From the NCBI RefSeq assembly GCF_037076455.1, contig NZ_AP028679.1, positions 945,501 through 1,009,500 of the forward strand: DNA of 64,000 nt, in the 5' to 3' direction. The notes beneath the pieces are model-generated. The model had not been told where the DNA came from. It ran no database searches and worked only from the letters and a program-made list of their open reading frames with translations. Origin of the DNA: Desulfoferula mesophila. GTDB lineage: Bacteria > Desulfobacterota > Desulfarculia > Desulfarculales > Desulfarculaceae. Made by a program: the position numbers and the translations under genes. This document shows positions 38,293-53,659 of this stretch, piece by piece. Each line of letters begins with the position of its first letter. Position 1 is the first letter of the stretch.

Positions 38293-38780
38293 GGCGGCTC
38301 CCTACTACAGGTGGTCGGCATGGTGATTGCGCGATGACAAGCGACCCGGCGCGGCCTGGCGAGGGCGGGCGGAGCTCAAAAAGGCTGTGTGAACCAGGTG
38401 TGGCCCTGTCGTGAACTTGTTGAACGAGACAAGCCACCCTCTGCCGCATCGGTCAATTCCTTTCGGTCAATTCCTTATGGGTAATGGGTTACCAATTATC
38501 ATATTCGTTTGTCAACGGGAAAATCGCTTACGTTTGCACATGGTCGCCGTTGCCCCGCCGAGGAGGGCGAAGAGTTGTATTTTTTGTTTTACTAGCGAGT
38601 GAAAATGACGTTAAATAGTGACATAATCTTGCCTGCCGGACGGTTTGGATTAACCGACACCGCCTGAGAGGTCGTGCGTCTTGTTGGGGGTAAATCTCTA
38701 AAACAACGTTTTCTAAGTCCCAGCTTTTCATGTTGGGCTGAGTAATTACCACTTAGTAGGTACAAAGGATGGAAAAGTCT
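38293..38780. other. Divergent intergenic region between TAXI operon and secreted-protein gene
   Basis: No gene is seen in 488 bases. An inverted repeat GGTAA-TGGG-TTACC lies at 38480-38493, and the 12-mer TCGGTCAATTCC occurs twice, at 38449-38460 and 38463-38474. The dyad fits loosely the TGGT/ACCA operators of FadR-type GntR proteins, and one is encoded at 34508. The stretch is AT-rich and probably holds promoters for both flanks. Confidence 0.55.
38480..38493. promoter_or_regulatory. Candidate GntR-type operator
   Basis: GGTAATGGGTTACC is a dyad with five-base arms upstream of the TAXI permease gene. Assignment to the GntR protein at 34508-35254 is by proximity only. Confidence 0.35.
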
Positions 38781-39218
38781 ATGAAAAAGAGCGTACTGGT
38801 TTTTGCGCTGATCGCAGTGATGGCCCTGGCCGTGCCCTTCATGGCCCAGGCGGCCGACAAACCCGATGGAACGGTGGCGTTCAAAACCCATAACGTGGCG
38901 GTCGGCGTGGGCGTCACCTGGGGTGACGGCACCCTCACCTACAAAGGCAAAACCTACAAGTTCAGCATCGAGGGCCTCAGCTTGCTGGACCTGGGCATGG
39001 GCGACGTGGAAGCCAAGGGCGAGGTGTACAACCTGAAGAAGCTCTCCGACTTCGAAGGTAACTACTCTTCGGTCCAGGCCGGCGCGGCCTTGGGCAAGGG
39101 TGTTGCCGTTTCCCAGCTGGTCAACGACGCTGGCGTGAAGATGAACCTGAAGGCCGTGCAGGACGCCGCGCGCCTGACCCTGGCCCCCGGCGGCATGAAG
39201 ATCAAATTCAAGAAGTAA
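38781..39218 (+). CDS. Small secreted protein, unknown function
   Basis: A 145-residue protein that I do not recognise. The ATG at 38781 is preferred to one 12 bases earlier because GGATGG is eight bases before it. A clean signal peptide (MKKSVLVFALIAV..., cleavage after AQA near 25) leads to about 120 mature residues rich in glycine and beta-strand residues (VGVGVTWGDGTLTYKGKTY, then GAALGKGVAVSQLVNDAGV). The single compact domain suggests a periplasmic or surface protein. It is monocistronic with its own terminator. Confidence 0.75.
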   Translation: MKKSVLVFALIAVMALAVPFMAQAADKPDGTVAFKTHNVAVGVGVTWGDGTLTYKGKTYKFSIEGLSLLDLGMGDVEAKGEVYNLKKLSDFEGNYSSVQAGAALGKGVAVSQLVNDAGVKMNLKAVQDAARLTLAPGGMKIKFKK

Positions 39219-39261
39219 GCGCGCCCATCTGACCTGTCCCTTTAGCGCTTAAAAGAATCGG

Positions 39262-39307
39262 CCGGGATTGCGTACAGCCACTGGGCGGCGCAATCCCGGT
39301 CTTTTTG
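39262..39307 (+). terminator. Intrinsic terminator
   Basis: Perfect 11-base arms CCGGGATTGCG and CGCAATCCCGG followed by TCTTTTT. This is the clearest Rho-independent terminator for the small secreted-protein gene. Confidence 0.85.
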
Positions 39308-39360
39308 TGCGATGCGAAATCCGCCCTAACGGCGCGAGTCATCGGGCCTTAGGAGGGTTG

Positions 39361-40281
39361 TTATCTGCCTAACTGGCGGTCACTCTCCGATAGGTAGTTG
39401 ATGAAGGCTTGAGCCGAGGGAGAAATGGTGACTCCCCTGCGGACAACCACCCCTCCCTGGGTGGCCAGGCGATTCCCCCGCACCGTCAGCTCCCGCAAGG
39501 TCCCGGCCTCGAAATCGGAGCGCAAGACATTTTGGGTGGCCAGTCCGACGGCCAGGCTGTTGGCCACCACCATTTTGGTCAGGAAGAGATCTTCGCACTC
39601 TATCGCCGGTCTGGCGACCACGACACCTTCGGCCGACTTTTCCACTTGCACCATGTCTTGCAAAAAAATCTTCGCGCGCGTGGGTAGCTGCAGGGTGGCC
39701 AGGGGATAGGCGGCCAAATCCTCGACCCGCGCCGGGGCCGTCTCCAGCAGGGGGTGGTCCGGGCGACAAAAAAACACCCCCGATTGGGTGCTCAAGGGAA
39801 TTACCTTGTACTCGGCACAATCCTCCAGGGCGGAGGTTTCGCCCACATACAAATCCAGCTCACCGGATTGCATCCTTTGGGTCAAGCCGGTCCACCCCCC
39901 GGTGCTTATGCGCAGTTTTATTTGGGGATAGTCGGCCACGAAGCGGCCCACCGCCGGCCCGGCCAGGCTGGCCACGTAAACCGGCCCGAACCCCACGCGC
40001 AGGGTGCCTATCTTCATGCCGCGCATCATGTGGAGCTCCCGTTCGGCCTCCTGCAACTGTCCCAAGATGTTGGCCGCGCGGCCCAGATAGGTCTCGCCAA
40101 AGGGTGTGGGGGTGACTTCCGTTTTCTTGCGGTCAAACAGCGGCACCCCCAGGTCTTTTTCCAGCTTTTGTATGGCCCGGGACAAGGCGGGCTGCGAGAT
40201 TCCCAGATCGCGGGCGGCCGCCGTGAAATTACGGTGCTGATCCAGGGCCAGGGCGTAGTACAAGGATTTTAAACTGTCCAT
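39361..40281 (-). CDS. LysR-family transcriptional regulator
   Basis: A 306-residue protein. Residues 1-60 form the LysR helix-turn-helix (ALDQHRNFTAAARDLGISQPALSRAIQKLEKDL, core FTAAARDLGISQPALSRA), the rest is the substrate-binding co-inducer domain. It is divergent from the sulfatase cluster, whose promoter carries a LysR-type dyad, so it is probably that cluster's activator. Its own -10 box ends only six bases before the ATG, so the mRNA may be leaderless. Confidence 0.93.
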   Translation of the reverse strand: MDSLKSLYYALALDQHRNFTAAARDLGISQPALSRAIQKLEKDLGVPLFDRKKTEVTPTPFGETYLGRAANILGQLQEAERELHMMRGMKIGTLRVGFGPVYVASLAGPAVGRFVADYPQIKLRISTGGWTGLTQRMQSGELDLYVGETSALEDCAEYKVIPLSTQSGVFFCRPDHPLLETAPARVEDLAAYPLATLQLPTRAKIFLQDMVQVEKSAEGVVVARPAIECEDLFLTKMVVANSLAVGLATQNVLRSDFEAGTLRELTVRGNRLATQGGVVVRRGVTISPSAQAFINYLSESDRQLGR

Positions 40282-40287
40282 GCAAAA

Positions 40288-40321
40288 ATTATATCGTGGC
40301 CAAAACTATTTTGCATCAAAA
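40288..40321 (-). promoter_or_regulatory. Promoter and operator of lysR, near-leaderless
   Basis: The minus strand reads TATAAT at 40293-40288, six bases before the ATG at 40281, with no ribosome site between. The dyad TTTTGCATCAAAA at 40309-40321 covers the -35 position, as for an autorepressing LysR protein. The -35 itself is poor. Confidence 0.6.
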
Positions 40322-40443
40322 CCGGCCGCCGCCACGCCGCCCTGTTGGGAATAGTTGCTGTTATGCATTAATGTAAACTAGTTAGGTGGCTTGGTGTTAC
40401 CGGGGGCACGGTTTTATAATTTGAAACGATATCTCCGGTGTTT

Positions 40444-40474
40444 ATTGCAAGCAGCCCTGCAATCTCCCTATAAT
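40444..40474 (+). promoter_or_regulatory. Promoter with LysR-type dyad, sulfatase cluster
   Basis: TTGCAA at 40445-40450 and TATAAT at 40469-40474 are 18 bases apart. Overlapping the -35 is the perfect dyad ATTGCA-N8-TGCAAT (40444-40463), with the T-N11-A type layout of LysR sites. Confidence 0.65.
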
Positions 40475-40605
40475 ATTATCAGGTCACCTTCAGGCAGTTT
40501 GTTCTAAAAAAAGCTAGCAGGCAGTCTGTGGGCCGCCTGCCCCCAATCACATGACCTTGGCAAATTCTTACCCTTTAGAGCGGCAGGCAAAACGGAGGTT
40601 TTTTG

Positions 40606-42255
40606 ATGCGATTGCTATCCGGCAAAACGATTTTCATATGGCTCATGGCCCTCATGGTGGGCCTGGCCTTTTTGGCCTCGCCGGCCATGGCGGCCAAGAA
40701 ACCCAACATCCTGTTAATCGTCTCCGATGACACCGGCTATGGTGACATCGGCGTCTATGGTGGCGGCGAGGGCCGCGGCATGCCCACCCCCAACCTGGAC
40801 CGCATGGCGGACGAGGGCATGACCTTCTTCTCCTTCTACGCCCAGCCCAGCTGCACCCCGGGCCGCGCGGCCATGCAGACCGGGCGCATCCCCAACCGCA
40901 GCGGCATGACCACCGTGGCCTTCCAGGGCCAGGGCGGCGGCCTGCCCGCGGCGGAGTGGACCCTGGCCTCGGTGCTCAAGACCGCCGGCTATGAGACCTA
41001 CTTCACCGGCAAGTGGCACCTGGGCGAGGCGGACTACGCCCTGCCCAACGCCCAGGGCTACGACCACATGAAGTATTGCCTGCTGTACCACCTCAACGCC
41101 TACACCTACGGTGATCCCAATTGGTTCCCGGACATGGACCCCAAGCTTAGGGCCATGTTCGACAAGGTGACCAAGGGCGCGCTGACGGGCGACGCCGGCC
41201 AGAAGCCCAAGCAGGACTGGAAGGTCAACGGCGAGTACGTGGACACCCCGGAAAAGGGCCTGGTGGGCATTCCCTTCCTGGACAAATATGTTGAGCAGGC
41301 GGGCCTGGAGTTCCTGGAGAAGGCGGCCAAGTCCGACAAGCCCTTCTTCATCAACGTGAACTTCATGAAGGTGCACCAGCCCAACCTGCCGGCGCCCGAG
41401 TTCAAGCACAAGTCCCTTTCCAAGACCAAGTACGCCGACTCCATCGTGGAGCTAGACGCCCGCATCGGCCACCTCGTGGACAAGCTGAAGGCCCTGGGCC
41501 TGGACAAGAACACCCTGGTCTTCTGGACTACCGACAACGGCGCCTGGCAGGACGTGTATCCCGACGCGGGCTACACCCCCTTCCGGGGAACCAAGGGCAC
41601 GGTGCGTGAGGGCGGCAATCGGGTGCCGGCCATCGCGATCATGCCCGGCAAGATCAAGGCCGGGGTGCGCAACTACGACATCCTGGGCGGCCTGGACTTC
41701 ATGGCCACCTTCGCCAAGCTGGCGGGCATCGAGCTGCCCAGCAAGGACCGCGAGGGCCAGCCCATCATCTTCGACAGCCACGATATGACCCCGGTGCTGT
41801 TCGGCACCGGCAAGTCGGCCCGCACCACCTGGTTCTACTTCACCGAGAACGAGCTGACCCCCGGCGCGGTGCGCGCGAACAACTACAAGGCCGTGTTCAA
41901 CCTGCGCGGCGACGACGGACAGGCCACCGGCGGCCTGGCGGTGGACACCAACCTGGGCTGGAAGGGCCAGGAGAAGTACGTGGCCACGGTTCCCCAGTTG
42001 TTCGACCTGTACCAGGACCCCCAGGAGCGTTACGACCTGTTCATGACCAACTGGACCGAGCGCACCTGGACCATGGTGACCTTCAACGATGCGATTACCG
42101 CGTTGATGAAGACCTACATCAAGTACCCCCCGCGCAAGCTGCAGAGCGAGAGTTACGCCGGTCCCGTAACCCTGAGCAAGTACCAGAACTTCAAGTACAT
42201 CCGCGATTCGTTGGCCAAGGACGGGTTCACCATCCCCATGCCTACGGGCAACTAA
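40606..42255 (+). CDS. Secreted sulfatase (formylglycine-dependent), first
   Basis: A 549-residue type I sulfatase; the ATG at 40606 has GGAGG seven bases upstream. A signal peptide (about 1-30, ASPAMAA) sends it out of the cytoplasm. Asp41-Asp42 bind calcium, and the maturation motif is Cys83-TPGR87; the cysteine must be turned into formylglycine. KWHLGE and TTDNGAWQD are further active-site pieces. It hydrolyses sulfate esters of an unknown compound. In an anaerobe the maturation enzyme would be the radical SAM anSME type, which is not in this window. It begins the exported cluster up to 49.9 kb. Confidence 0.93.
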   Translation: MRLLSGKTIFIWLMALMVGLAFLASPAMAAKKPNILLIVSDDTGYGDIGVYGGGEGRGMPTPNLDRMADEGMTFFSFYAQPSCTPGRAAMQTGRIPNRSGMTTVAFQGQGGGLPAAEWTLASVLKTAGYETYFTGKWHLGEADYALPNAQGYDHMKYCLLYHLNAYTYGDPNWFPDMDPKLRAMFDKVTKGALTGDAGQKPKQDWKVNGEYVDTPEKGLVGIPFLDKYVEQAGLEFLEKAAKSDKPFFINVNFMKVHQPNLPAPEFKHKSLSKTKYADSIVELDARIGHLVDKLKALGLDKNTLVFWTTDNGAWQDVYPDAGYTPFRGTKGTVREGGNRVPAIAIMPGKIKAGVRNYDILGGLDFMATFAKLAGIELPSKDREGQPIIFDSHDMTPVLFGTGKSARTTWFYFTENELTPGAVRANNYKAVFNLRGDDGQATGGLAVDTNLGWKGQEKYVATVPQLFDLYQDPQERYDLFMTNWTERTWTMVTFNDAITALMKTYIKYPPRKLQSESYAGPVTLSKYQNFKYIRDSLAKDGFTIPMPTGN

Positions 42256-42284
42256 GCGGCCCAGCACGGATCACCTGAAAACAG

Positions 42285-42310
42285 AGAGCGCCCCCTTGGG
42301 GGGGCGCTCT
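42285..42310 (+). terminator. Terminator-like hairpin after the first sulfatase
   Basis: Perfect 11-base arms AGAGCGCCCCC and GGGGGCGCTCT with a four-base loop, then TTGCTATCAT. It probably stops or limits readthrough into the next gene. Confidence 0.65.
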
Positions 42311-42400
42311 TGCTATCATAAGAATCGATAGGCGGCGGCCCCCATAGGGCGGCCGGGCTCCAGGCGTGGCTGAAAAAGCCCCAACAAAGGTGGTGCCGGT

Positions 42401-43219
42401 ATGAAATGGTGTGCTGCAACCGTCTGTCTTGTTTTAGTTGCCTTGCTGGGCCTTCCGCTGGCCGCAGGCGCCGCCGAAGCGGGGGACAGCGCCCAGTCGG
42501 CCGCCGATGCCGCGGCCCAGGCCAACAACCCCCTGGCCAACATGACCGCGCTCAATTTTCAGAACTACTACATCGGACGGGTGACCGAGACCGGTGAGGA
42601 CGCCAACCAGTTCTGGGTGCGCTTTGCCCAGCCGTTTTCGGTGGCCAAGACCAACTGGATCATGCGGGCCTCCCTGCCGGTGAACACCTACCCCAACCTG
42701 ATGGACGGGGGCCATGAGACCGGCTTGGGGGATTTCAACATCTTCGCCGCTTATCTGATCGACATCGGCAACCCGGCGATAAGTTTCGGTATCGGTCCTC
42801 AGCTCACGGTGCCCACCGCCACCAAGGACGAGTTGGGCTCGGAGAAATGGTCGGCCGGCGTGGCCAACGTGCTGTTCAACGCCAGCTCGCGGCGTCTCCA
42901 ATACGGCTACCTGCTCACCTGGCAGGCCAGTTTCGCGGGCAACGACGACCGCAGCAACGTGAACACCGGCGCCTTCCAGCCCTTTGCCATGTACCAACTC
43001 GGCAATGGCTGGTACCTGCGTTCGGCGCCGATCTGGGTCTACAACTTTGAAAATGGCGACTACGACGTTCCCCTGGGGGCGGGCGTGGGCAAGGTAATAA
43101 AATCCGGCAAGACGGTGTTCAATATTTTCGTGGAGCCCCAGGTGTCGGTGATCGACGAGGGCGCCGGCTGGCCGGAGTGGCAGATTTTAGCGGGACTCAA
43201 CCTGCAGTTCACCAACTGA
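42401..43219 (+). CDS. Secreted beta-barrel outer-membrane protein candidate, first
   Basis: A 272-residue exported protein. After a signal peptide (cleavage near AGA/AEA, residue 25) it consists of alternating amphipathic strands, ends in an aromatic-containing terminal strand LNLQFTN, and holds segments [13 protein letters not shown] and [17 protein letters not shown] typical of porin-like transporters of the phenol-degradation MetA/TtgA-related family. It is similar in plan to the protein at 47212. It may pass the sulfated substrate or product through the outer membrane (inference). Confidence 0.75.
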
Positions 43220-43365
43220 CGGACCTGAGCAACCCCCCGGGGCCGCGTACGGCCCCTAGATCTTGAGAGGCAGCCCTTCCCCTCATGTTTTTTCACGCCG
43301 GCGGCACCGAGCGCCCAGGAGGGTCCGGTGTCCGTGCGGCGGTCAATAGTTTTGCGGAGGAAACC

Positions 43366-44367
43366 ATGCAATCCAAATGGTCGTTCAGCTTAATCGCAAT
43401 TATTGTGGCGTTCATGGTGTTGGCGGCGGTTCCCTGCTTGGCCGCGGGCGACCCTCTGCCTTCCTGGCGGGACGGCGCCGCCAAGCAGGCCATCATCACC
43501 TTTGTGGACAAGGTCACCCGCGAGGGCGGGCCGGATTACGTGGCGCCCCGGGATCGCATCGCTACCTTTGACAACGACGGCACCCTGTGGTCCGAGCAGC
43601 CGATGTACGTGCAGCTGTTTTTCGTCCTGGAGCGGATTAGGGAGTTGGCCCCCCGGCATCCCGAGTGGAAAAACAACCCCGCGGTGCAGGCGGCCCTGGC
43701 CGGCGACAAAGCCAAGCTGATGAAAATGGGGCACAAGGGCATCCTGGAGTTGGCGGCCCTGACCCACGCCGGCATCACCGCCCAGCAGATGCAGGAGCTT
43801 TCCGCCGCCTGGCTGAAGACCGCGCGCAATCCCGTCAAGCACATGCTTTTCGTGCAGATGATCTATCAGCCCATGGTCGAGCTGCTGGCCTACCTAAGGG
43901 ACAACGGCTTCAAGACCTTCATCGTCTCCGGCGGCGGGGTGGACTTCATCCGCGCCTTCTCCCTGCACGCCTACGGCATCCCGTCGTACCAAGTGATCGG
44001 CTCCAGCCTCAAGAGCAAGTTTGAGTTCAAGGACGGCAAGGCCGAAGTGATCAAGCTGCCCGAGATCAACAGCATCGACGACGGCCCGGGCAAGCCGGAG
44101 AACATCGAGTTGCAGATCGGCCAGCGACCCATCATGGCGGTGGGCAACTCCGACGGCGACCTGCCCATGTTGCAATTCGCCGCCTCCGGCACTGGGGCGC
44201 GCCTGATGATGCTGGTGCATCATGACGACGCGACGCGGGAGTTCGCCTACGACCGCAAGTCGGACATGGGGCGTCTGGACAAGGGGCTGGACATGGCCAA
44301 GAAAAACGGCTGGCTCCTCATCAGCATGAAGAACGATTTCGCCCAGGTGTACCCCACGGCCAAATAG
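43366..44367 (+). CDS. Secreted HAD-family phosphatase
   Basis: A 333-residue haloacid-dehalogenase-fold hydrolase, start at ATG 43366 with GCGGAGG upstream. A signal peptide (about 1-27) precedes the catalytic domain. Motif I is Asp69-N-Asp71-GT (FDNDGTLW), motif II VSGGG (FIVSGGGVD), and motif IV GNSDGDLPM. The pattern is phosphoserine-phosphatase-like but the export signal makes a periplasmic phosphatase likely. It lies between two barrel/sulfatase genes, so its substrate may be the same polar compound after or before desulfation. Confidence 0.88.
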   Translation: MQSKWSFSLIAIIVAFMVLAAVPCLAAGDPLPSWRDGAAKQAIITFVDKVTREGGPDYVAPRDRIATFDNDGTLWSEQPMYVQLFFVLERIRELAPRHPEWKNNPAVQAALAGDKAKLMKMGHKGILELAALTHAGITAQQMQELSAAWLKTARNPVKHMLFVQMIYQPMVELLAYLRDNGFKTFIVSGGGVDFIRAFSLHAYGIPSYQVIGSSLKSKFEFKDGKAEVIKLPEINSIDDGPGKPENIELQIGQRPIMAVGNSDGDLPMLQFAASGTGARLMMLVHHDDATREFAYDRKSDMGRLDKGLDMAKKNGWLLISMKNDFAQVYPTAK

Positions 44368-44425
44368 TAGTAGCATGAGGGCGGGGTTGCTTGCGCAAGG
44401 GTTGTAAGGGCACGAGGAGGCCGTT

Positions 44426-46783
44426 TTGAGCCGTAGAATACACCGGGCGGTTGTCTTGGTCGGGTTGCTGGCGTCCACCGTGGTCTTGGGCTGGGGCGTC
44501 TGTCCGGCCAAGCAGGCCGCCATCCTCTCCCAAGGGGCCTACACCGGCAGCCAGAGCTGCCGCGAGTGTCACGAGCGGTTCTACCAGCTCTGGGCGCCTT
44601 CCCATCACGGCACGGCCATGCAGGACTACAGCGACGCCTTTGCCGCCAAGAACCTTACACCCCAACCGGCCCCCCTGGTCATCCTCAAGGCGAGCTACCA
44701 AGCCCAAATAGGCCCCGGCCAGGGGTGGGTGTTGGAAAAGACCGCCCAAGGCGAGAAGCGCTATTCCATCAAGCACGCTCTGGGCGGCAAGAACATCTTC
44801 TACTTCCTGACGCCCATGGACAAGGGGCGCCTGCAGACCCTGCCGGTGGCCTACGACCTCAACAAGAAGGCCTGGTTCGATACGGCCAAGAGCGGCATCC
44901 GCCACGCCGGCGACCAGCCGGTGGACTGGCGCGATTCCTCCTACACTTTCAACACCTCCTGCCACGGTTGCCACGTCAGCCAGTATTCCCTGAACTACGA
45001 CCCCGAGACCCGCGCCTACCACACCACCTGGAAGGAGCCGGGCATCAACTGCGAAACCTGCCACGGGCCGGGCGAGGCCCACGTGAAGGTTTGCCAGGCG
45101 GCCCCCAAGGGCACGGTGCCCAAGGATCTGGAGATTACCCGGGGCGGCCGCGACTTCACTCCCGAGCAGAACAACGCCACCTGCTCCACCTGCCACGCCA
45201 AGGCGGTTCCCCTCACCCAGAGCTTCATGCCGGGCGACAACTTCTGGGACCACTACGACCTGGCGCTTTTCGAGCACAGCGACTATTACCCCGACGGCCG
45301 GGATCTGGGCGAAAACTACACCTTTACCTCCGCCCTGATGAGCCCCTGCGTAATAGCCGGCAAGCTGGGCTGCACCCATTGCCACACCTCCAGCGGGCGT
45401 TTCCGCCAAAAGAAGGACCCCAACCAGGCCTGCCTGCCCTGTCACGCCGAACGGGTGAAGGAAGCCGCCGCCCACAGCCGCCATAAGGCCGGCACGCCGG
45501 GCAGCCAGTGCATCTCCTGCCACATGCCCATGACCAGCTTCGCGGGCATGCACCGCAGCGACCACTCCATGCTGCCGCCCACCCCGGCGGCCACGCTCAA
45601 GTTCAAATCGCCCAACGCCTGCAATATGTGCCACAAGGACAAGGACGCGGCCTGGGCCGATGCCAAGGTGCGCGCCTGGCACAAGGACGACTACCAGGCG
45701 CCGGTGCTGCGCCGGGCCGCCCTCGTTAAGGCGGCGCGCCAGCGGGACTGGTCGCGCCTGCCAGAGATCCTGGCCTATATAAACAGCCCGCAGCGGGACG
45801 CGGTGTTCTCCGCTTCCCTGGTCCGCCTGCTCGTGGCCTGCCCGGACCAGAGCAAGTGGCCGGTGTTGCTCAAGGCGGCAACGGACCCCTCGCCCCTGGT
45901 GCGCTCCTCGGCCCTGGCCGCCTTGGCCGACTACCGCACCGCTCCGGCGGCCCAGGTGCTCTTCCAGGCCCTGGACGACCCGCGCCGCCTGGTGCGCATC
46001 CGCGCCGCCCAGAGCCTGACCAGCTACCGGATGGCAAGCCTCCCGCCGGAGCGGGAAAAGGCCCTGAACGCCGCGACCCAGGAGTTGCTGGCCTCCCTGA
46101 TGGCCCGGCCCGATACCTGGCACGCCTATTACAACCTGGGCAACTACTACCTGGAGCGCGGCGTGACCCACAAGGCCGTGCCCGCCTACCAGGAGGCCCT
46201 GGCCCTGGAGCCGCAAGCCCTGGTCCCCAGGGTCAACCTGGCCATGGCCTACATCCGCCAGGGGGACGCCCAACAAGCCAAGGCGCAGCTTGCCAAGGCC
46301 TTGGAAATATCCCCGGACAGCGCGGCGGCCAACTTCAACATGGGCCTGTTGCAAGCCGAGGAGGGCAGCACCCAAAAGGCGGAGCGGTCGCTGCGCGCCG
46401 CCCTGAAGGCCGATCCCCAGATGGCCCAGGCGGCCTACAACCTGGGTTTGCTGGTGTACAAGCGCGATCCCAAACAGGGCCTGGAGTTCTGCCGCAAGGC
46501 CTACGAGCTGCAACCCAACCCCCGCTACGGCTACACCCTGGCCTTTCTCCAGCAGCAAAACGGCGATCGCCGGGGCGCGGCCGAGGTGCTCGATTCGCTC
46601 ACCCGGCGCTGGCCGACCTATGCCGACGCCTATTTGCTGTGGGCGGACATGCTGAGCAAGTCCGGCGAGTTCCCGGCCGCCCGGCAGGTGGTGCAAAAGG
46701 CGCTGGAGCACAAGGGGATGTCGCCCGGCGACCAGAGGAGGCTGCAGGCCATGGCCGCCCGGCTGAATCAGGGGAGCAAATAG
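44426..46783 (+). CDS. Octahaem cytochrome c fused to HEAT and TPR repeats
   Basis: A 785-residue exported protein starting at TTG with GAGGAGG six bases upstream. The first 26 residues are a signal/anchor. Eight CXXCH haem sites occur at Cys45, 179, 209, 253, 316, 336, 362 and 399 (first Cys of each), in a cytochrome c554-like part. HEAT-like repeats cover about 430-560 and TPR repeats about 570-785 (WHAYYNLGNYYLERG, AAFNMGLLQ-type units). The repeats probably hold a partner while the haems move electrons. Electron source and acceptor are unknown; the cluster's sulfatases and phosphatase do not need electrons, which makes its presence notable. Confidence 0.9.
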   Translation: MSRRIHRAVVLVGLLASTVVLGWGVCPAKQAAILSQGAYTGSQSCRECHERFYQLWAPSHHGTAMQDYSDAFAAKNLTPQPAPLVILKASYQAQIGPGQGWVLEKTAQGEKRYSIKHALGGKNIFYFLTPMDKGRLQTLPVAYDLNKKAWFDTAKSGIRHAGDQPVDWRDSSYTFNTSCHGCHVSQYSLNYDPETRAYHTTWKEPGINCETCHGPGEAHVKVCQAAPKGTVPKDLEITRGGRDFTPEQNNATCSTCHAKAVPLTQSFMPGDNFWDHYDLALFEHSDYYPDGRDLGENYTFTSALMSPCVIAGKLGCTHCHTSSGRFRQKKDPNQACLPCHAERVKEAAAHSRHKAGTPGSQCISCHMPMTSFAGMHRSDHSMLPPTPAATLKFKSPNACNMCHKDKDAAWADAKVRAWHKDDYQAPVLRRAALVKAARQRDWSRLPEILAYINSPQRDAVFSASLVRLLVACPDQSKWPVLLKAATDPSPLVRSSALAALADYRTAPAAQVLFQALDDPRRLVRIRAAQSLTSYRMASLPPEREKALNAATQELLASLMARPDTWHAYYNLGNYYLERGVTHKAVPAYQEALALEPQALVPRVNLAMAYIRQGDAQQAKAQLAKALEISPDSAAANFNMGLLQAEEGSTQKAERSLRAALKADPQMAQAAYNLGLLVYKRDPKQGLEFCRKAYELQPNPRYGYTLAFLQQQNGDRRGAAEVLDSLTRRWPTYADAYLLWADMLSKSGEFPAARQVVQKALEHKGMSPGDQRRLQAMAARLNQGSK

Positions 46784-47211
46784 CCGGATCGCCTCGGGCC
46801 TGCCCGGCCGGGGCAGGTCCCGCCGCGTGAGGTCCTGGCGGTTGCCACCGCGGTCCCTGTACTGGCGCAAAACCGGCCTCCAGCGGCGGTTCATGGCGCT
46901 TTGGGGGCGAAAAATTTCCAGCCCATATTCTCGCCCGGCCGGACCCAGGCCTCGTTTCATGGCCAGGTGCGGGTAATTACGAGGGAAACCTCCCGGCGCT
47001 TACGGCGGTCAAGGCTGCTCCCAGAATCAATGCGCCCAACATTCCTCTTGCTAGTGATCCATAAAATTAATTAGGCTCGTTACACAATCATGAGGGGCCC
47101 AGGGCTGTGGGTTTCCTGTCCTCAGCCCTCCCCCCGCATAACTTGGCGAGTCCCCTGATCCCAGATTATTGAAAACCGAATAGACGAACCTGCTCATAGG
47201 GAGAACATGTA
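46784..47211. other. Intergenic region inside the exported cluster
   Basis: The 428 bases hold no credible gene. A short hairpin CCTGCCC-GGCCG-GGGCAGG at 46799-46817 follows the cytochrome gene. The stretch at 47055-47100 is AT-rich and may hold the promoter for the second barrel gene; I see no convincing -35/-10 pair. Confidence 0.6.
46799..46817 (+). terminator. Short hairpin after the octahaem gene
   Basis: Seven-base perfect arms CCTGCCC and GGGCAGG with a five-base loop. No T-tract follows. Confidence 0.4.
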
Positions 47212-48078
47212 ATGTCTCGCATGCTGGTAAAAACTGGTGTGGTGTTGTGGTTTGCGCTCCTGGCGGTGGTGTTGGCCGGGCCCGCGGGGGCCGAGGAAAA
47301 AGCGGCCCCCCACGAACAAATGAGTCTGGACCAGGTCTCCAATGAACTCAACAACCCCCTGACCTCTTTGTGGAGCATCAACAACGAGTTCGATTTTCAG
47401 TATTACGGAGGCGACGCGGGCGGTGATGAACTGCAGGCGGTGTGGCAGTTCAGACCGGTGATGCCAGTGGACCTGGGCAACAACTGGATCTACGTGAACC
47501 GCCCCACCATCCCCGTGGTTTTCCAACAGCCTTATTTCAACACAAGCTCCTTCAGCTGGGACGAGGATTCCGGCCTGGGCGACATTCAGTATTTGGGCCT
47601 CATCGGCAAGAGTCTGCCCAACGGCGTTGTGTGGGCCGGAGGCTTCACCTCCAGCTTCCCCAGCGCCAGCCCCAGCGTCTTGGGTTCCGGCAAGTGGTCG
47701 GTGGGCCCGGCCTTCGCGGTGGCCACCTTGCAGAAAAAATACGTCCTGGGGGCCCTGTACCAGCAATGGTGGTCCGTGGCCGGCCAGGAGGATCGCGACA
47801 ACGTCAATTTTTCGGCCCTGCAGGTGTTTTATTTCCTGAACTTCGCGAACGGCTGGCAGGTGGGCGGCTCCCCGGTCCTGAGCGCCAACTGGATGGCCGA
47901 CTCGGACAACCGCTACAACGTGCCAGTGGGCCTGGGAGTCTTCAAAACCCTGCGCTTGGGCAGGCTGCCGGTGCGTATCGGCGTGGAATACGATTACAGC
48001 GTGGTGCAGGAGGACACCTGGGGGCGGGACTATCTGATCAAATTCGTCATAACTCCGGTCATACCGTCGCTTTTCTAG
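47212..48078 (+). CDS. Secreted beta-barrel outer-membrane protein candidate, second
   Basis: A 288-residue exported protein: signal peptide with cleavage near GAE (residue 27), then alternating strands (FRPVMPVDLGNNWIYVNRP, GLGDIQYLGLIGKSL, KWSVGPAFAVATLQKKYVL) and a terminal strand ending VITPVIPSLF, whose last residue is the aromatic expected for barrel assembly. Plan and order match the protein at 42401, so they are probably paralogues, each next to a sulfatase. Confidence 0.75.
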   Translation: MSRMLVKTGVVLWFALLAVVLAGPAGAEEKAAPHEQMSLDQVSNELNNPLTSLWSINNEFDFQYYGGDAGGDELQAVWQFRPVMPVDLGNNWIYVNRPTIPVVFQQPYFNTSSFSWDEDSGLGDIQYLGLIGKSLPNGVVWAGGFTSSFPSASPSVLGSGKWSVGPAFAVATLQKKYVLGALYQQWWSVAGQEDRDNVNFSALQVFYFLNFANGWQVGGSPVLSANWMADSDNRYNVPVGLGVFKTLRLGRLPVRIGVEYDYSVVQEDTWGRDYLIKFVITPVIPSLF

Positions 48079-48165
48079 GACTTCAAGAGAATTTTCCTGA
48101 ATAGCGATCTGCTTGAATGCGCCAGGGAGGCCCTTGGCTTCCCCGGCGGTGTAAGGAGATAGGGT

Positions 48166-49869
48166 ATGGCAAGCAAGCTCTGCTTCGCTCTCGAGGTGCG
48201 CAAATTGTTGGCCTCCGGACTCATGGCCGCCATGATCCTGTGCCTGCCATCCGCTGCGCCGCGGGCGGCGGATATCACCCGGGGATCGGTTACCGGCCAG
48301 GCCACGGCCAAGGGATACGACCACCCCAACCAGTACCTGCACATTCGCCCGGTACCCATCGCGCCCAACATGGAGCCGGTGATTTCTCATCCCGCCCAGG
48401 ACCAGCAGGCCCGCCAAAAGTTGGCCGCGCTGGAGAAACGCTTCGGCAAGAAGCCCAACATCCTCATATTCCTGCTGGACGACGTGGGCTGGCTGGACCC
48501 GGGCTTCAACGGAGGTGGCGAGGCGGTGGGCAACCCCACCCCGGTGATGGACCGCCTGGCCCATGGGGGCCTGGTCCTTACCTCCGCCTATTCCACCCCC
48601 AGTTGCTCGCCCACCCGGGCCACCATCCACACCGGCCAGACCCCCCTGCACCACGGCCTGCTCAGGCCGCCCATGTACGGCGAGGCGGGGGGCCTGGACG
48701 GGGCCGCCACCTTCCCCATGGCCCTGCAAAAGCTGGGCTATGTGACCCAGGGGGTGGGCAAATGGCACATGGGGGAAAACCAGGGCTCCCTGCCTCAAAA
48801 CGTGGGCTATGATGATTTCTACGGCTTTTTGAGCGTCTCGGACGCCTACACCGAGTGGCGGGACCAGTACTTCAACCCCGAGATCGCCCTAAGCCCCGGG
48901 CGTACCGCGGCCATGCAAAAGATGCCTTTTAACCACAACAACGTGCACTGCACCCAGTCCGACAAGGCCAAGTGCGTGGACGTATACGAAGTGAACCTGA
49001 CCACCATCAAGAACCTGGACCAGGACTGGGCGGCCTACAGCGAAAAGTTCATTCGCAAGATGGCGGGGAGCAAGCAGCCCTTCTTCCTCTATCACGCCAC
49101 CCGGGCCGCTCATTTCGACAATTACCCCAACGACGTCTACGCCGGCAAGTCGCCGGCCCGCACCGTTTACAGCGACGCCCTGGTGGAGGTGGACGACATC
49201 CTGGGCCGCCTGGTCAAGGCGCTGGAAGAGACCGGGCAGCTGGAAAACACCCTCATATTCTTCACTTCGGACAACGGCCCCGAGTGCGAGGTGCCTCCCC
49301 ACGGCCGCACCCCCTTCCGGGGTTGCAAGGGCTCCAGTTGGGAAGGTGGGGTCCGGGTGCCGACCTTTGCCTATTGGAAGGGCGTGATCGTCCCGCGCCG
49401 TTCCGATGGCCTGTTCGACCTGGCCGACCTGTTCAACACCGCCATCTCCCTGGCTGGAGCCCCGGGGGCCCAGGCCGCCAAGTACGTGCCCAAAACCCAC
49501 TACATCGACGGCATCGACCAGGCCAGCTTCCTTCTGGCCGACCAGGGCCAGTCCAACCGGCGCAGCCGCATCTACACCATGAACCAATTCCTCTCCGGCA
49601 TCCGCATCGACGAGTTCAAGTTCAACACCGTGGTGCAGTTGGAGCAGGGCATCTTCCAGCGGGGCTACACCGGGGGATTCAGCGGGGCCATGGTGACCTC
49701 CACCGGCGGGGTGGCGATGATCAACCTGTATACCGACCCCAAGGAGGACGTGAGCGTGGGCATCCGTCACATCCCCGTGGATGTGCTTTTGGAAGCCGAG
49801 GGGAACCGCTACCGGGAGGTGCTAAAAAAGTACCCCCCAGTGACCAAGATCGGCTTCGGCCAAAACTAG
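48166..49869 (+). CDS. Secreted sulfatase (formylglycine-dependent), second
   Basis: A 567-residue sulfatase. After a signal peptide (about 1-35) there is an extra 60-residue linker before the catalytic domain. Asp105-Asp106 bind calcium and the maturation motif is Cys147-SPTR151. KWHMGE, the SDNGPEC segment and FRGCKGSSWEGGVRVP are typical. It differs from the first sulfatase across the whole chain, so substrates may differ. A short degenerate fragment of the cytochrome/TPR gene begins four bases after its stop. Confidence 0.93.
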   Translation: MASKLCFALEVRKLLASGLMAAMILCLPSAAPRAADITRGSVTGQATAKGYDHPNQYLHIRPVPIAPNMEPVISHPAQDQQARQKLAALEKRFGKKPNILIFLLDDVGWLDPGFNGGGEAVGNPTPVMDRLAHGGLVLTSAYSTPSCSPTRATIHTGQTPLHHGLLRPPMYGEAGGLDGAATFPMALQKLGYVTQGVGKWHMGENQGSLPQNVGYDDFYGFLSVSDAYTEWRDQYFNPEIALSPGRTAAMQKMPFNHNNVHCTQSDKAKCVDVYEVNLTTIKNLDQDWAAYSEKFIRKMAGSKQPFFLYHATRAAHFDNYPNDVYAGKSPARTVYSDALVEVDDILGRLVKALEETGQLENTLIFFTSDNGPECEVPPHGRTPFRGCKGSSWEGGVRVPTFAYWKGVIVPRRSDGLFDLADLFNTAISLAGAPGAQAAKYVPKTHYIDGIDQASFLLADQGQSNRRSRIYTMNQFLSGIRIDEFKFNTVVQLEQGIFQRGYTGGFSGAMVTSTGGVAMINLYTDPKEDVSVGIRHIPVDVLLEAEGNRYREVLKKYPPVTKIGFGQN

Positions 49870-49872
49870 GTC

Positions 49873-49977
49873 ATGGGTGCACGCTGGCCAAAGGTGCTAG
49901 AGCAGAAAGGGATGTCGCCCGGCGGCCAAAGGAGGCCGCAAGCCATGGCCAACAAGCTGGGCCAGCCGGGCAAGTAA
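49873..49977 (+). pseudogene. 3' remnant of a second octahaem/TPR gene
   Basis: The 34-codon frame ends KVLEQKGMSPGGQRRPQAMA and then NKLGQPGK, a clear match to the end of the protein at 44426-46783, which reads KALEHKGMSPGDQRRLQAMA then ARLNQGSK. The bases agree closely too (around 46700-46783). The rest of the gene is gone. So this side of the cluster once carried its own copy behind the second sulfatase, or the tail was copied here. Confidence 0.8.
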
Positions 49978-50053
49978 TCATTGCCGGCGACCCGCCTTGG
50001 CCCAGTACTTGGCCAGGGCTGGCGTCCGCAAGCATTCGGATCCCAAGCTGGAA

Positions 50054-50087
50054 AAAAGGGGTTGGCCGAGACCGGCTAACCCCTTTT
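50054..50087. terminator. Bidirectional intrinsic terminator
   Basis: Arms AAAAGGGGTT and AACCCCTTTT with inner GGCC pairing sit between convergent transcripts. T-rich ends on both strands make it work both ways. Confidence 0.85.
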
Positions 50088-50120
50088 AATTATAGTAGGT
50101 AACGCTGAGCCCTCTAAGCC

Positions 50121-51047
50121 TCAATATTTTTGAGCCTGGCAGGCCTCGCCGGCTTCGCGCCACAAGGCCCAGAAGCTTTCCGGGTCGGCCAGCAAATAGT
50201 CGCGCATGGGCCTGCACTTGACGCGGAAAATATGGAAACGCGGGCTGGGCAGGCGCAGGGGGCACAGCGTTTCGAAGTTGGCCATGCCTTTGACCACCAT
50301 CAAATCGGCGCGGCCCACCAGGTCCTTGAACTCCTGTGACGCCCGCTCCCATTCCACCCCGGCGCCATCCACCCCGGTGTCCGCCAAATTAGGGAACATC
50401 GGCATCAGCCCGGAGGCCTGCAGATCTGGCCGGGTCAGGTCGTTGAGGGCGGGCCCTCCCTTCACCACCAGGAACACCCGCTCAAAATGACGGCTGAGAT
50501 GCCGGTACAGCGGCAGGTCGAAGAAAATCTCGCCGGCATTGTCGGTGAGATAAAGCGCCGTTCGGTGCCTGGTGGCCAGGAACCGCTCCAGCCGGGGGAT
50601 ATCGTCATGCTGCATGTCCACCCCGGCGGCAAGGACGCGCTCCACCTCGGCCATGGCCTCCTGCGGGGGCTTGAAAAAGTCCAGGCTGTTGCCCAAGGCG
50701 GCCAGCTTGACCAGGGAGGTCAAGTCCGCGCCGATCATTTTTTGCGCCCGGGCGGCGGCTCGCCTCCCGGTGGCTTGCTCCTGGGCCTTGAAGTTGCGGT
50801 AGGGGTCATGCACCCCGGTTTCCCGGCGGATGCCGCGCAGAATGCGGTTGGCCACTTCCGGCGAGGACAGGAGAGTGCCTGCGCTTTGGGCCATGGCCGC
50901 TCGCGCCGCCTGCTGGGCCCGGCGTAGCAATTCAGGGTCGCCTCCGGCGGCGAATTCCGCGGCGGTCGTGGTCAGATCTTCCAGGCACTGCCGGCACTGG
51001 GGAAAGGGCTTGAGCAGCCGGCCTTGTATAAAGGGTGAGGCTATCAT
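50121..51047 (-). CDS. DUF89/ARMT1-family metal-dependent phosphatase
   Basis: A 308-residue protein of the damage-control phosphatase family. Diagnostic pieces are the N-terminal CRQC pair, LTDNAGEIFFDLPLY, VVKGGPALNDLT, VVKGMANFETL and VKCRPM. These bind a divalent metal and a phosphorylated ligand; family members clear damaged sugar phosphates or related metabolites. It overlaps the upstream DUF2080-like gene by four bases. Confidence 0.87.
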   Translation of the reverse strand: MIASPFIQGRLLKPFPQCRQCLEDLTTTAAEFAAGGDPELLRRAQQAARAAMAQSAGTLLSSPEVANRILRGIRRETGVHDPYRNFKAQEQATGRRAAARAQKMIGADLTSLVKLAALGNSLDFFKPPQEAMAEVERVLAAGVDMQHDDIPRLERFLATRHRTALYLTDNAGEIFFDLPLYRHLSRHFERVFLVVKGGPALNDLTRPDLQASGLMPMFPNLADTGVDGAGVEWERASQEFKDLVGRADLMVVKGMANFETLCPLRLPSPRFHIFRVKCRPMRDYLLADPESFWALWREAGEACQAQKY

Positions 51048-51304: not shown

Positions 51305-53659
51305 CTATTCCTTCTTCTGTTTCTTAAACGCCTGGTAGACGCGTTCGGGGGTCAGGGGCGTTTCATCGAGCACCAGGCCGGTGGCGTTGCGCACCGCGTT
51401 GAGGATGGCCGGGATGGTGGGCATGATGGCTCCCTCGCCCACCTCCTTGGCCCCGAAGGGCCCATTGGGCTCGCCGGACTCCACCACGATGCACTTGGTC
51501 TCGGGCATGTCCATCACCGTGGGGATGTGGTACTCGCCCAGGCTGGGATTGATGATGCGCCCCTGGGAGTCGAATTTCACCTCCTCGAAAAGCGCCTCGC
51601 CCAGGCCCATGGACACCGAGCCCTGCATCTGGGCCTCCACGCTGGTCAGGTTCACCGCCTGGCCGCAGTCGTGGGCGTCCGTGATGCGCTCCACCTTGAT
51701 CTGGCCCGTCTCGAAGTCCACGCTCACCTCGGCCACCTGGGCCGAGCAGCCGTAGGCCGGGCTGGTGCCCACCGCCGCGCCCTTGTACTTGCCGCCCAAG
51801 ACCGGAGGCTTGTACTTGCCCGTGGCCACCACCGTGCCCCGGCGCAGGTAGGCCAGGCGCGCCGCCTCGCGGAAGGTCAGCTCGTCGCCCTCCGGCGGGT
51901 CCGGCCAGCCGCGGTGCTCCTTGATGTAGCCCGTGCGGATGGCGCTGAAGTCCACCGGATCGCCGCTGATCTTGATCCGGCCCTCCTTGATGTCCAGGCG
52001 GCTCTGCTCGATGCCCAGCTCCTGGGCCAGGGTCTCCAGAATCATGGCCTTGAGGTTTTCCCCCGCCTCCTTGGCGGCGTGGCCGGTCATCAGGGTGGTG
52101 CGCGAGGAATAGGCCCCCAGGTCGATGCCGAAGTCGGTGTCGCCGCTCTTGACCCGCACCTGCTCGTAGTCGATGCCCACCGCCTCGGCGGCGATCATGG
52201 CCATGGTGGTCTCAGAGCCCTGGCCGATCTCGGCCGAGGCGGTGTAGAGCAAAATGCCCCCGCCGTCCTCGTCGGCCTTGATGATGATGGTGCAGTGATA
52301 GGTGTCGCTGCGATAGATGGGATAACCCGCGCCGGAGACGAAGAAGCCGCAGGCCACGCCGATGCCCTTGCCCGGCGGCAGCTTGCCCTTTTTCTCCGCC
52401 CAGCCGGAGCCGGTTTTCACCGCCTCCAAACACTCGCGCATGCCCAGGCTGCTCATGGCCAGGTCGTTGCAAGTAACGTCCCCGGTCTCCATCATGTTCT
52501 TCAGGCGAAGCTCGATGGGGTCCATGCCCAGCTTCTCGGCCACCAGGTCCAGCTGCTGCTCGAAAAGACCCCGGGCGATAACCCCGCCGTGGCCCCGCTG
52601 GGCCCCGCAGGCGGGCTTGTTGGTGTAGATGCGCTGGCCCTGGTAGCGCATGTTGGGCAGCTTGTAGGGGCCGCCCAAGAGAGAGCCGGCGTAGTAAACC
52701 GTGGCGATGCCGAAGGAGGAGTAGGCCCCGCCCTCCAGCGTGGCCTGGTGGTCCAGGGCCATCAGGGTGCCGTCCTTCTTGGCCCCCAGCTTCATGTGGT
52801 GGGTGAAGCCGTGGCGGGCCCGGCTGAAAAGAAACACCTGCTCCCTGGTGTAGGCCATGCGCACCGGACGCCCGGTCTTGATGGCCAAAAAGCTCGAGGC
52901 CAGCTCGATGGGGGTGGCCGAGGCCTTGGGGCCGAAGCCGCCGCCCACGTAGGGCTTGGCCACCCGCACCCGGCTCATGCCCAGGCCGGTGACCATGGCC
53001 ACGGTGCGCTGCACGTAGTGGGGCACCTGGGTGGAGCTGTGCAGGTTGAGCACCCCGTCAGAGTCCACCAGGGCCACGCACTGGTTGGGCTCGATAAAGG
53101 CCCCGTCCTGACGCTTGGAATAAAAACTGCCCTCCTGGATGATGTCGCACTCGGCGAAGGCCGCCTCCACGTCGCCAAACTCCTGCTCCACCTTGGCGCA
53201 GACGTTGTCGGGAAATTCGTCGTGGATCCAGGGAGCCCCCTCGGCCATGGCCTCCTCCACCGTGAGCAGCACCGGCAGGGGCTCGTACTCCACCTCGATC
53301 AGCTCCACCGCCTTGAGCGCGGTGGCCAGATCCTCGGCGGCCACCGCGGCGATCTCGTCGCCCACGTAGCGCACCCGGTCCTTGGCGAAAAGATTCTCGT
53401 CGTAGCGGGCCGGCGACACCCCGTACTTGATGTCCGGCACGTCCTGGGCGGTGATCACCGCCACCACCCCGGGCAAAGCCTGGGCTTTGGAAATGTCGAT
53501 GCTCTTGATCTTGGCGTGGGCCTGGCTGGATTGCAGCATGGCCCCGGCCAGCTCGCCTACGAATTTGAGGTCCTCGATGTAGCGGGCCTTGCCCGTGGAC
53601 TTGTCGGGGGCGTCCTTGCGGGCCGCCCGGCCTCCGATTACCGAGAAGTTGCCGCTCAT
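51305..53659 (-). CDS. Molybdenum hydroxylase, large (molybdopterin) subunit
   Basis: A 784-residue xanthine-dehydrogenase-family large subunit. The N-terminal (aldehyde oxidase a/b hammerhead) domain covers 1-130; the Mo-cofactor domain carries GGGFGPKAS, CGAQRGHGG and GQGSETTMAMIAAEA. The catalytic glutamate is expected in GAKEVGEGAIMPTIPAILNA. It forms a hetero-trimer with the iron-sulfur and FAD subunits encoded just upstream. The order and the CGAQRGHG loop recall 4-hydroxybenzoyl-CoA reductase and related aromatic-CoA hydroxylases; substrate remains open (see FAD subunit). Confidence 0.9.
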   Translation of the reverse strand: MSGNFSVIGGRAARKDAPDKSTGKARYIEDLKFVGELAGAMLQSSQAHAKIKSIDISKAQALPGVVAVITAQDVPDIKYGVSPARYDENLFAKDRVRYVGDEIAAVAAEDLATALKAVELIEVEYEPLPVLLTVEEAMAEGAPWIHDEFPDNVCAKVEQEFGDVEAAFAECDIIQEGSFYSKRQDGAFIEPNQCVALVDSDGVLNLHSSTQVPHYVQRTVAMVTGLGMSRVRVAKPYVGGGFGPKASATPIELASSFLAIKTGRPVRMAYTREQVFLFSRARHGFTHHMKLGAKKDGTLMALDHQATLEGGAYSSFGIATVYYAGSLLGGPYKLPNMRYQGQRIYTNKPACGAQRGHGGVIARGLFEQQLDLVAEKLGMDPIELRLKNMMETGDVTCNDLAMSSLGMRECLEAVKTGSGWAEKKGKLPPGKGIGVACGFFVSGAGYPIYRSDTYHCTIIIKADEDGGGILLYTASAEIGQGSETTMAMIAAEAVGIDYEQVRVKSGDTDFGIDLGAYSSRTTLMTGHAAKEAGENLKAMILETLAQELGIEQSRLDIKEGRIKISGDPVDFSAIRTGYIKEHRGWPDPPEGDELTFREAARLAYLRRGTVVATGKYKPPVLGGKYKGAAVGTSPAYGCSAQVAEVSVDFETGQIKVERITDAHDCGQAVNLTSVEAQMQGSVSMGLGEALFEEVKFDSQGRIINPSLGEYHIPTVMDMPETKCIVVESGEPNGPFGAKEVGEGAIMPTIPAILNAVRNATGLVLDETPLTPERVYQAFKKQKKE

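Follow-up and report, generated by a model that had tools for sequence, protein, structure and literature searches.

A modular gene row with exported sulfatases, a HAD phosphatase and an octahaem cytochrome, possibly serving organosulfate processing in the cell envelope

What do sulfatases, a phosphatase and a multihaem cytochrome have to do with each other when their genes stand in one row? The question is raised by a locus in a stretch of 64,000 nucleotides (the window, G000:C1:945501-1009500) from a bacterium related to sulfate reducers, the genome of which (G000, 4.48 Mb) is assembled in one contig and 98.7% complete. Next to a divergent gene of a LysR-type regulator, six genes on one strand encode an exported S1 sulfatase (Sulf1), a predicted outer-membrane barrel (Bar1), a HAD-IB type phosphatase (HAD), an octahaem c-type cytochrome with HEAT and TPR repeats (Cyt), a second putative barrel (Bar2) and a second exported sulfatase (Sulf2; Table 1). 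The initial annotation had listed these parts as exported and had combined them into a single six-gene pathway. Open reading frames, Pfam matches and motifs place every part where it had been put, and export signals, which for all window proteins were judged by eye and without a signal-peptide predictor, are in agreement as well. The single pathway is not supported, as the set is divided into three modules in the nearest relatives. The association of sulfatase, HAD and Cyt is nevertheless real, and the conserved core combines a sulfatase of the cysteine type (Cys-type) with a secreted phosphatase of the HAD type and a cytochrome of the c554/NrfA superfamily that has eight haems, with the barrels as frequent partners.

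The core linkage can be followed in a phylum sample of 395 genomes and a family sample of 20 genomes. In the phylum sample, HAD homologues (cut-off E 1e-60) are found in 26 genomes, Cyt homologues (E 1e-30) in 52, and PF00884 sulfatases (E 1e-20) in 186. HAD and Cyt occur together in 18 genomes (hypergeometric 6e-12), and a sulfatase is present in 25 of the 26 HAD genomes (4e-8) and in 47 of the 52 Cyt genomes (3e-12) compared to 186 of 395 overall, all these probabilities being calculated regardless of ancestry. In the family sample, S1 sulfatases (E 1e-20) occur in seven genomes (G000 and G047-G052), which are exactly those that have Cyt and a close HAD, and the closest named records carrying Cyt are metagenome-assembled genomes of Desulfarculaceae. 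Neighbourhoods were read on stretches of at most 20 kb, with some contigs being short. Outside the genus, a sulfatase accompanies Cyt at 23 of 51 loci (within 1 kb at 15, on the same strand at 19), where chance would account for a few per cent, given the few sulfatases of a 4-Mb genome, and among 23 HAD loci, many of them on short contigs, 11 have a sulfatase and 8 have Cyt. Co-occurrence, proximity and order thus bear out as non-random the link that had been drawn initially between these parts.

Also the type of sulfatase is informative. The signature CT[AP]GR is found in 13 of 15 HAD-adjacent sulfatases in which the motif can be read, some loci being counted twice (L149, L150, L164, L165, L168, L176, L177 and L181 are among the HAD-adjacent loci), whereas the common signature is CSP[ST]R, and where a sulfatase adjoins Cyt in the absence of HAD, its signature is mostly CxP[STA]R. 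This distribution shows that HAD prefers one sulfatase type and that Cyt accompanies several.

Beyond the phylum, arylsulfatase, HAD and multihaem cytochrome follow each other in the identical order on plasmids of Roseibium, Rhizobium and S. meliloti (gene order of the latter taken from strain ml66), and the rhizobial and Roseibium counterparts are 71-76% identical to Sulf1, 52-54% to HAD, and 25-29% to Cyt. The low identity of the cytochromes may be due either to their faster evolution or to the recruitment of distant cytochromes to the same place, and both accounts suggest that the position matters. In Methylocystis and Methylosinus, a sulfatase is directly paired with the cytochrome, and on other plasmids the linkage is looser or absent. 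The rhizobial copies adjoin a FixL/FixJ-like sensor pair, a hint of control by redox state or oxygen. A transcriptome study of S. meliloti (PMC2912261) names an arylsulfatase, SMa1683, which, going by the numbering alone, may be the arylsulfatase of this set. Every component family is already known, and none of the open-access papers searched was found to describe sulfatase, HAD and octahaem cytochrome as a unit, in line with the initial remark that no described pathway unites these known parts.

Within the genus, the row falls into the modules LysR/Sulf1-Bar1, HAD-Cyt and Bar2-Sulf2, which are found on different contigs or at different positions. In G049, LysR/Sulf1-Bar1-HAD-Cyt stand together with Bar2-Sulf2 on a separate contig, G048 has LysR/Sulf1-Bar1 on one contig and HAD-Cyt on another, in G050 a different sulfatase lies 5' of HAD-Cyt and Bar2-Sulf2 is encoded elsewhere, and in G051 and G052 HAD adjoins a sulfatase and Cyt is elsewhere. 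Among the genomes looked at, the full six-gene row was seen in the window genome alone, and as the modules are split in the relatives, the row is to be regarded as an assembly of three modules. The initial annotation had itself named genes scattered in relatives with no shared order as the finding that would speak against its pathway; this is partly what is seen for the six-gene set, whereas the core linkage of sulfatase, HAD and Cyt holds.

The row also carries a trace of its history. Behind Sulf2, where the interval of the initial annotation ends, there is a relic of 90 nt that is 78% identical to 46693-46782 at the end of the Cyt gene and in register with it. A footprint of a foreign cytochrome was considered for this relic and rejected; its closest match is the window's own Cyt, which makes a local duplication likelier. 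In two relatives, G049 and G050, no such relic was found 3' of Sulf2. Together with the gap of 428 nt between Cyt and Bar2, the relic would agree with the Bar2-Sulf2 module having arrived later. Because of this gap, one transcript covering the six genes is no more than a possibility, and scans for promoters and terminators gave no excess over shuffled sequence.

Table 1. Features of the locus, with positions in the window
Feature	Position	Strand	Basis
EipA-like small exported protein, optional neighbour	38769..39218	+	PF06577, 24 bits, below cut-off 30.8
LysR-type regulator, divergent from Sulf1	39361..40281	-	PF00126 and PF03466
Palindrome ATGCAAAA-N21-TTTTGCAT, candidate LysR site	40280..40316		conserved in G048 and G049
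Sulf1, exported S1 sulfatase, CTPGR	40606..42255	+	PF00884
Bar1, predicted outer-membrane beta-barrel	42401..43219	+	AlphaFold model, Foldseek
HAD, HAD-IB type phosphatase, probable start ~43366	43285..44367	+	PF12710
Cyt, octahaem c-type cytochrome with HEAT and TPR repeats	44426..46783	+	8 CXXCH, model
Bar2, putative outer-membrane beta-barrel, Bar1 homologue	47212..48078	+	alignment, BLASTP
Sulf2, exported AslA-type S1 sulfatase, CSPTR	48166..49869	+	PF00884
Decayed copy of the last ~29 Cyt codons, ends at stop	49887..49976	+	nucleotide alignment

Both sulfatases match PF00884 (E 2e-45 and 1.2e-55) and have formylglycine signatures of the Cys-type, and the ATG start of Sulf1 is preceded by GGAGG. 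HAD matches PF12710 with 44 bits (cut-off 27) and has the DxDGT motif, which reads FDNDGT in the translation, and its export signal (MQSKW...CLAAGD) is present only with the internal ATG start. Its full-length match to a solved structure, 4OVY (E 1.9e-105), leads to a HAD hydrolase without an assigned function, which provides a structure alone and nothing functional to transfer. Bar1 has no Pfam match; AlphaFold predicts a barrel of about 12 beta-strands for it (predicted local distance difference test score, pLDDT, 77.5), and as Foldseek neighbours of this model include FapF, NanC and a COG4313 channel (4RL8), Bar1 is modelled as a channel-like transmembrane barrel. Bar2, which is about 31% identical to Bar1, would be an outer-membrane barrel by this homology alone. 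As for the regulator, orthologues of LysR in G048 and G049 are 63-65% identical and likewise divergent from Sulf1, as already annotated for the window, and the intergenic region has diverged in both relatives except for the palindrome, which makes a LysR site there plausible. The left arm of the palindrome overlaps the LysR start codon.

Cyt has exactly eight CXXCH motifs, all of which are invariant across 49 homologues, and beyond these motifs there is one further conserved cysteine, at position 308. Its model (pLDDT 87.4) has a beta-rich insert after haem 1, and the haem domain is followed by HEAT and TPR repeats that end in a long C-terminal TPR superhelix, a fold that usually serves as a protein-binding platform. 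Structure searches with the whole model gave TPR matches alone, and the missing haem folds are uninformative in these searches. A profile of 39 Cyt haem domains matches OcwA with E 3e-22 in three collinear pieces, and also the multihaem cytochrome cf (6QVM), NrfA and c554, which by sequence makes Cyt a member of the c554/NrfA/OcwA superfamily. Apart from those in CXXCH motifs, five histidines are invariant in the family and a sixth is found in 85% of the sequences, and as there are fewer invariant histidines than the eight haems, at least one haem may be open and available for catalysis. In MccA, a long CX15CH-type motif binds one of the haems, and a cysteine pair binds copper. An MccA-type octahaem sulfite reductase was considered for Cyt and rejected, as all eight motifs are ordinary CXXCH and the cysteine pair is absent; the match of the haem profile to MccA (4RKM) has E 0.075 over 29 positions.

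Around the set, several other genes recur. EipA-like homologues are found near Cyt or HAD in L034, L080, L165, L174 and L198. An alternative neighbourhood of Cyt consists of a sulfatase, a PF13557 barrel, a DUF2092 protein and a SYLF-type protein (L029, L033, L035, L044, L077, L084), and Bat-type genes (MoxR/VWA/BatD) are interspersed with HAD, sulfatase and Cyt or adjoin them on some plasmids and genomes (L154, L155, L163, L174). In the window, an ARMT1-like damage-control phosphatase (50121-51047) is encoded on the opposite strand and adjoins a molybdenum-hydroxylase-like gene (51305-53659). TonB/SusCD uptake genes or glycoside hydrolases, by which a polysaccharide utilisation locus would be recognised, are absent among the genes at 38769-51047.

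The likeliest, and still tentative, frame for these observations on genes, motifs, recurrent order, linkage and modularity is a locus of modular build that processes organosulfates in the cell envelope and includes a redox partner. LysR would sense a sulfated compound or its product, the barrels would carry the compound across the outer membrane, and the sulfatase would remove the ester groups in the periplasm. As a conjecture, HAD could act on the same compound if this is also phosphorylated. Cyt, docked via its TPR/HEAT part, would donate electrons to, or accept them from, either the freed product or a partner enzyme, and in the window genome the AslA-type Bar2-Sulf2 module would have joined this core next to the cytochrome relic. 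What weighs against such a locus is that it has no known substrate, that the co-occurrence statistics ignore shared ancestry, that at more than half of the Cyt loci the stretch examined lacks a sulfatase (some contigs being short), that sulfatases at E 1e-20 are missing from a few genomes with Cyt, including G210 with a close Cyt, and that a single ancestral six-gene operon had to be rejected because the modules separate in relatives. This separation would also be expected if the genes were only loosely co-located in a common envelope, stress or low-oxygen programme rather than serving one substrate, with the sulfatases scavenging sulfate independently. The EipA-like, MscS, SYLF, DUF2092 and Bat-type genes that recur around the set, the FixL/FixJ-like pair beside the rhizobial copies and several plasmid cytochromes without an adjacent sulfatase are in agreement with such a programme, but it is less likely, as the order of sulfatase, HAD and Cyt is kept across phyla despite very different cytochromes, as HAD prefers one type of sulfatase, and as a sulfatase lies within 1 kb at 15 of 51 Cyt loci. 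More doubtful is that Cyt is an OcwA-like terminal reductase for nitrite, hydroxylamine, shuttles or minerals, which has its own acceptor and stands beside sulfatases for unrelated reasons. The profile matches to OcwA, NrfA and c554 and the histidine shortfall, which leaves room for an open haem, argue for a reductase, as does the activity of OcwA itself, which reduces nitrite and hydroxylamine and transfers electrons to electrodes (PMC6703420), but the strong linkage to sulfatases, the long TPR/HEAT arm and the number of only eight haems do not fit this function.

A last explanation concerns the sulfatases themselves. In S1 sulfatases, a cysteine or serine is converted to formylglycine for full activity, and the window genome holds several Cys-type sulfatases, yet neither of the known maturases, anSME and an FGE that has the Cys pair, was detected in it. 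No anSME was found over the cut-off (best 43 bits vs 349), the FGE Cys pair is absent from all three PF03781 (FGE-domain) proteins of the genome (G000:C1:3560637-3561338, 856440-857174 and 4405272-4405898; L157-L159), and a DNA pattern for this pair, used as one pattern with one positive control (record L151, protein GGSFLC...YC, which matches), is absent from the genome as well. The pattern was found in one of 29 genomes searched, G256, which itself has no sulfatase at E 1e-20, and an anSME-like gene (E 1e-50) is present in 8 of the 26 HAD genomes and absent from 18. The gap weakly supports that Cyt, with or without HAD, is an oxygen-independent maturation or activation partner of Cys-type sulfatases in cells without FGE or anSME. 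For this, Cyt would accept the two electrons from the conversion of cysteine to formylglycine and bind the sulfatase via its TPR/HEAT arm. The several signature types among the partner sulfatases of Cyt would suit this role, and a study cited in PMC6189696 (Benjdia 2007) is credited there with an uncharacterised machinery that modifies Cys-type sulfatases in E. coli. Both the partnership and its electron-accepting mechanism are nevertheless very improbable, since anSME-like genes do occur in eight HAD genomes, known maturases work before export, G210 combines a close Cyt with no sulfatase, and the FGE test consists of a single pattern with a single positive control. Moreover, unmodified choline sulfatase retains some activity (PMC6189696), so that loss of function does not necessarily follow from the lack of a maturase, which may be dispensable.

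In several phyla, and in the genetically tractable symbiont S. meliloti, sulfatases are linked with a phosphatase and a multihaem electron carrier, and if the set were solved, a widespread cytochrome family and a widespread HAD family would both gain a function. Genomes with Cys-type sulfatases and no detected maturase are new organisms in which a further maturation route can be sought, and if Cyt did have a role in maturation, this would be an unrecognised additional route.

Cyt and OcwA share a collinear haem domain of the c554-NrfA type, but OcwA has nine haems instead of eight, ends in a three-helix bundle and has not been reported with a HEAT/TPR arm, and Cyt differs also by its company of sulfatase genes. 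OcwA and MccA have a beta-sheet domain in common (PMC6703420), to which the insert of Cyt is only a possible parallel. PsFucS1 (7AJ0, S1_13) is the closest solved structure to both Sulf1 and Sulf2 (E 4e-103 for Sulf2), but the similarity is too low for transferring its substrate, fucoidan, which was rejected also because AslA of E. coli is closer to Sulf2 (57-60% identity). In E. coli, AslA is paired with the anSME gene AslB, whereas no anSME was found in the window genome. The plasmid runs of Roseibium, Rhizobium and S. meliloti are without the Sulf2 module, and the rhizobial ones have a two-component pair in place of LysR. In sulfur-scavenging ats/ssu clusters, such as that of S. medicae, atsA is found with ABC transporter genes (PMC4053727), and the window cluster likewise has sulfatases beside transport genes, but instead of an ABC transporter it contains outer-membrane barrels, a HAD phosphatase and a multihaem cytochrome.

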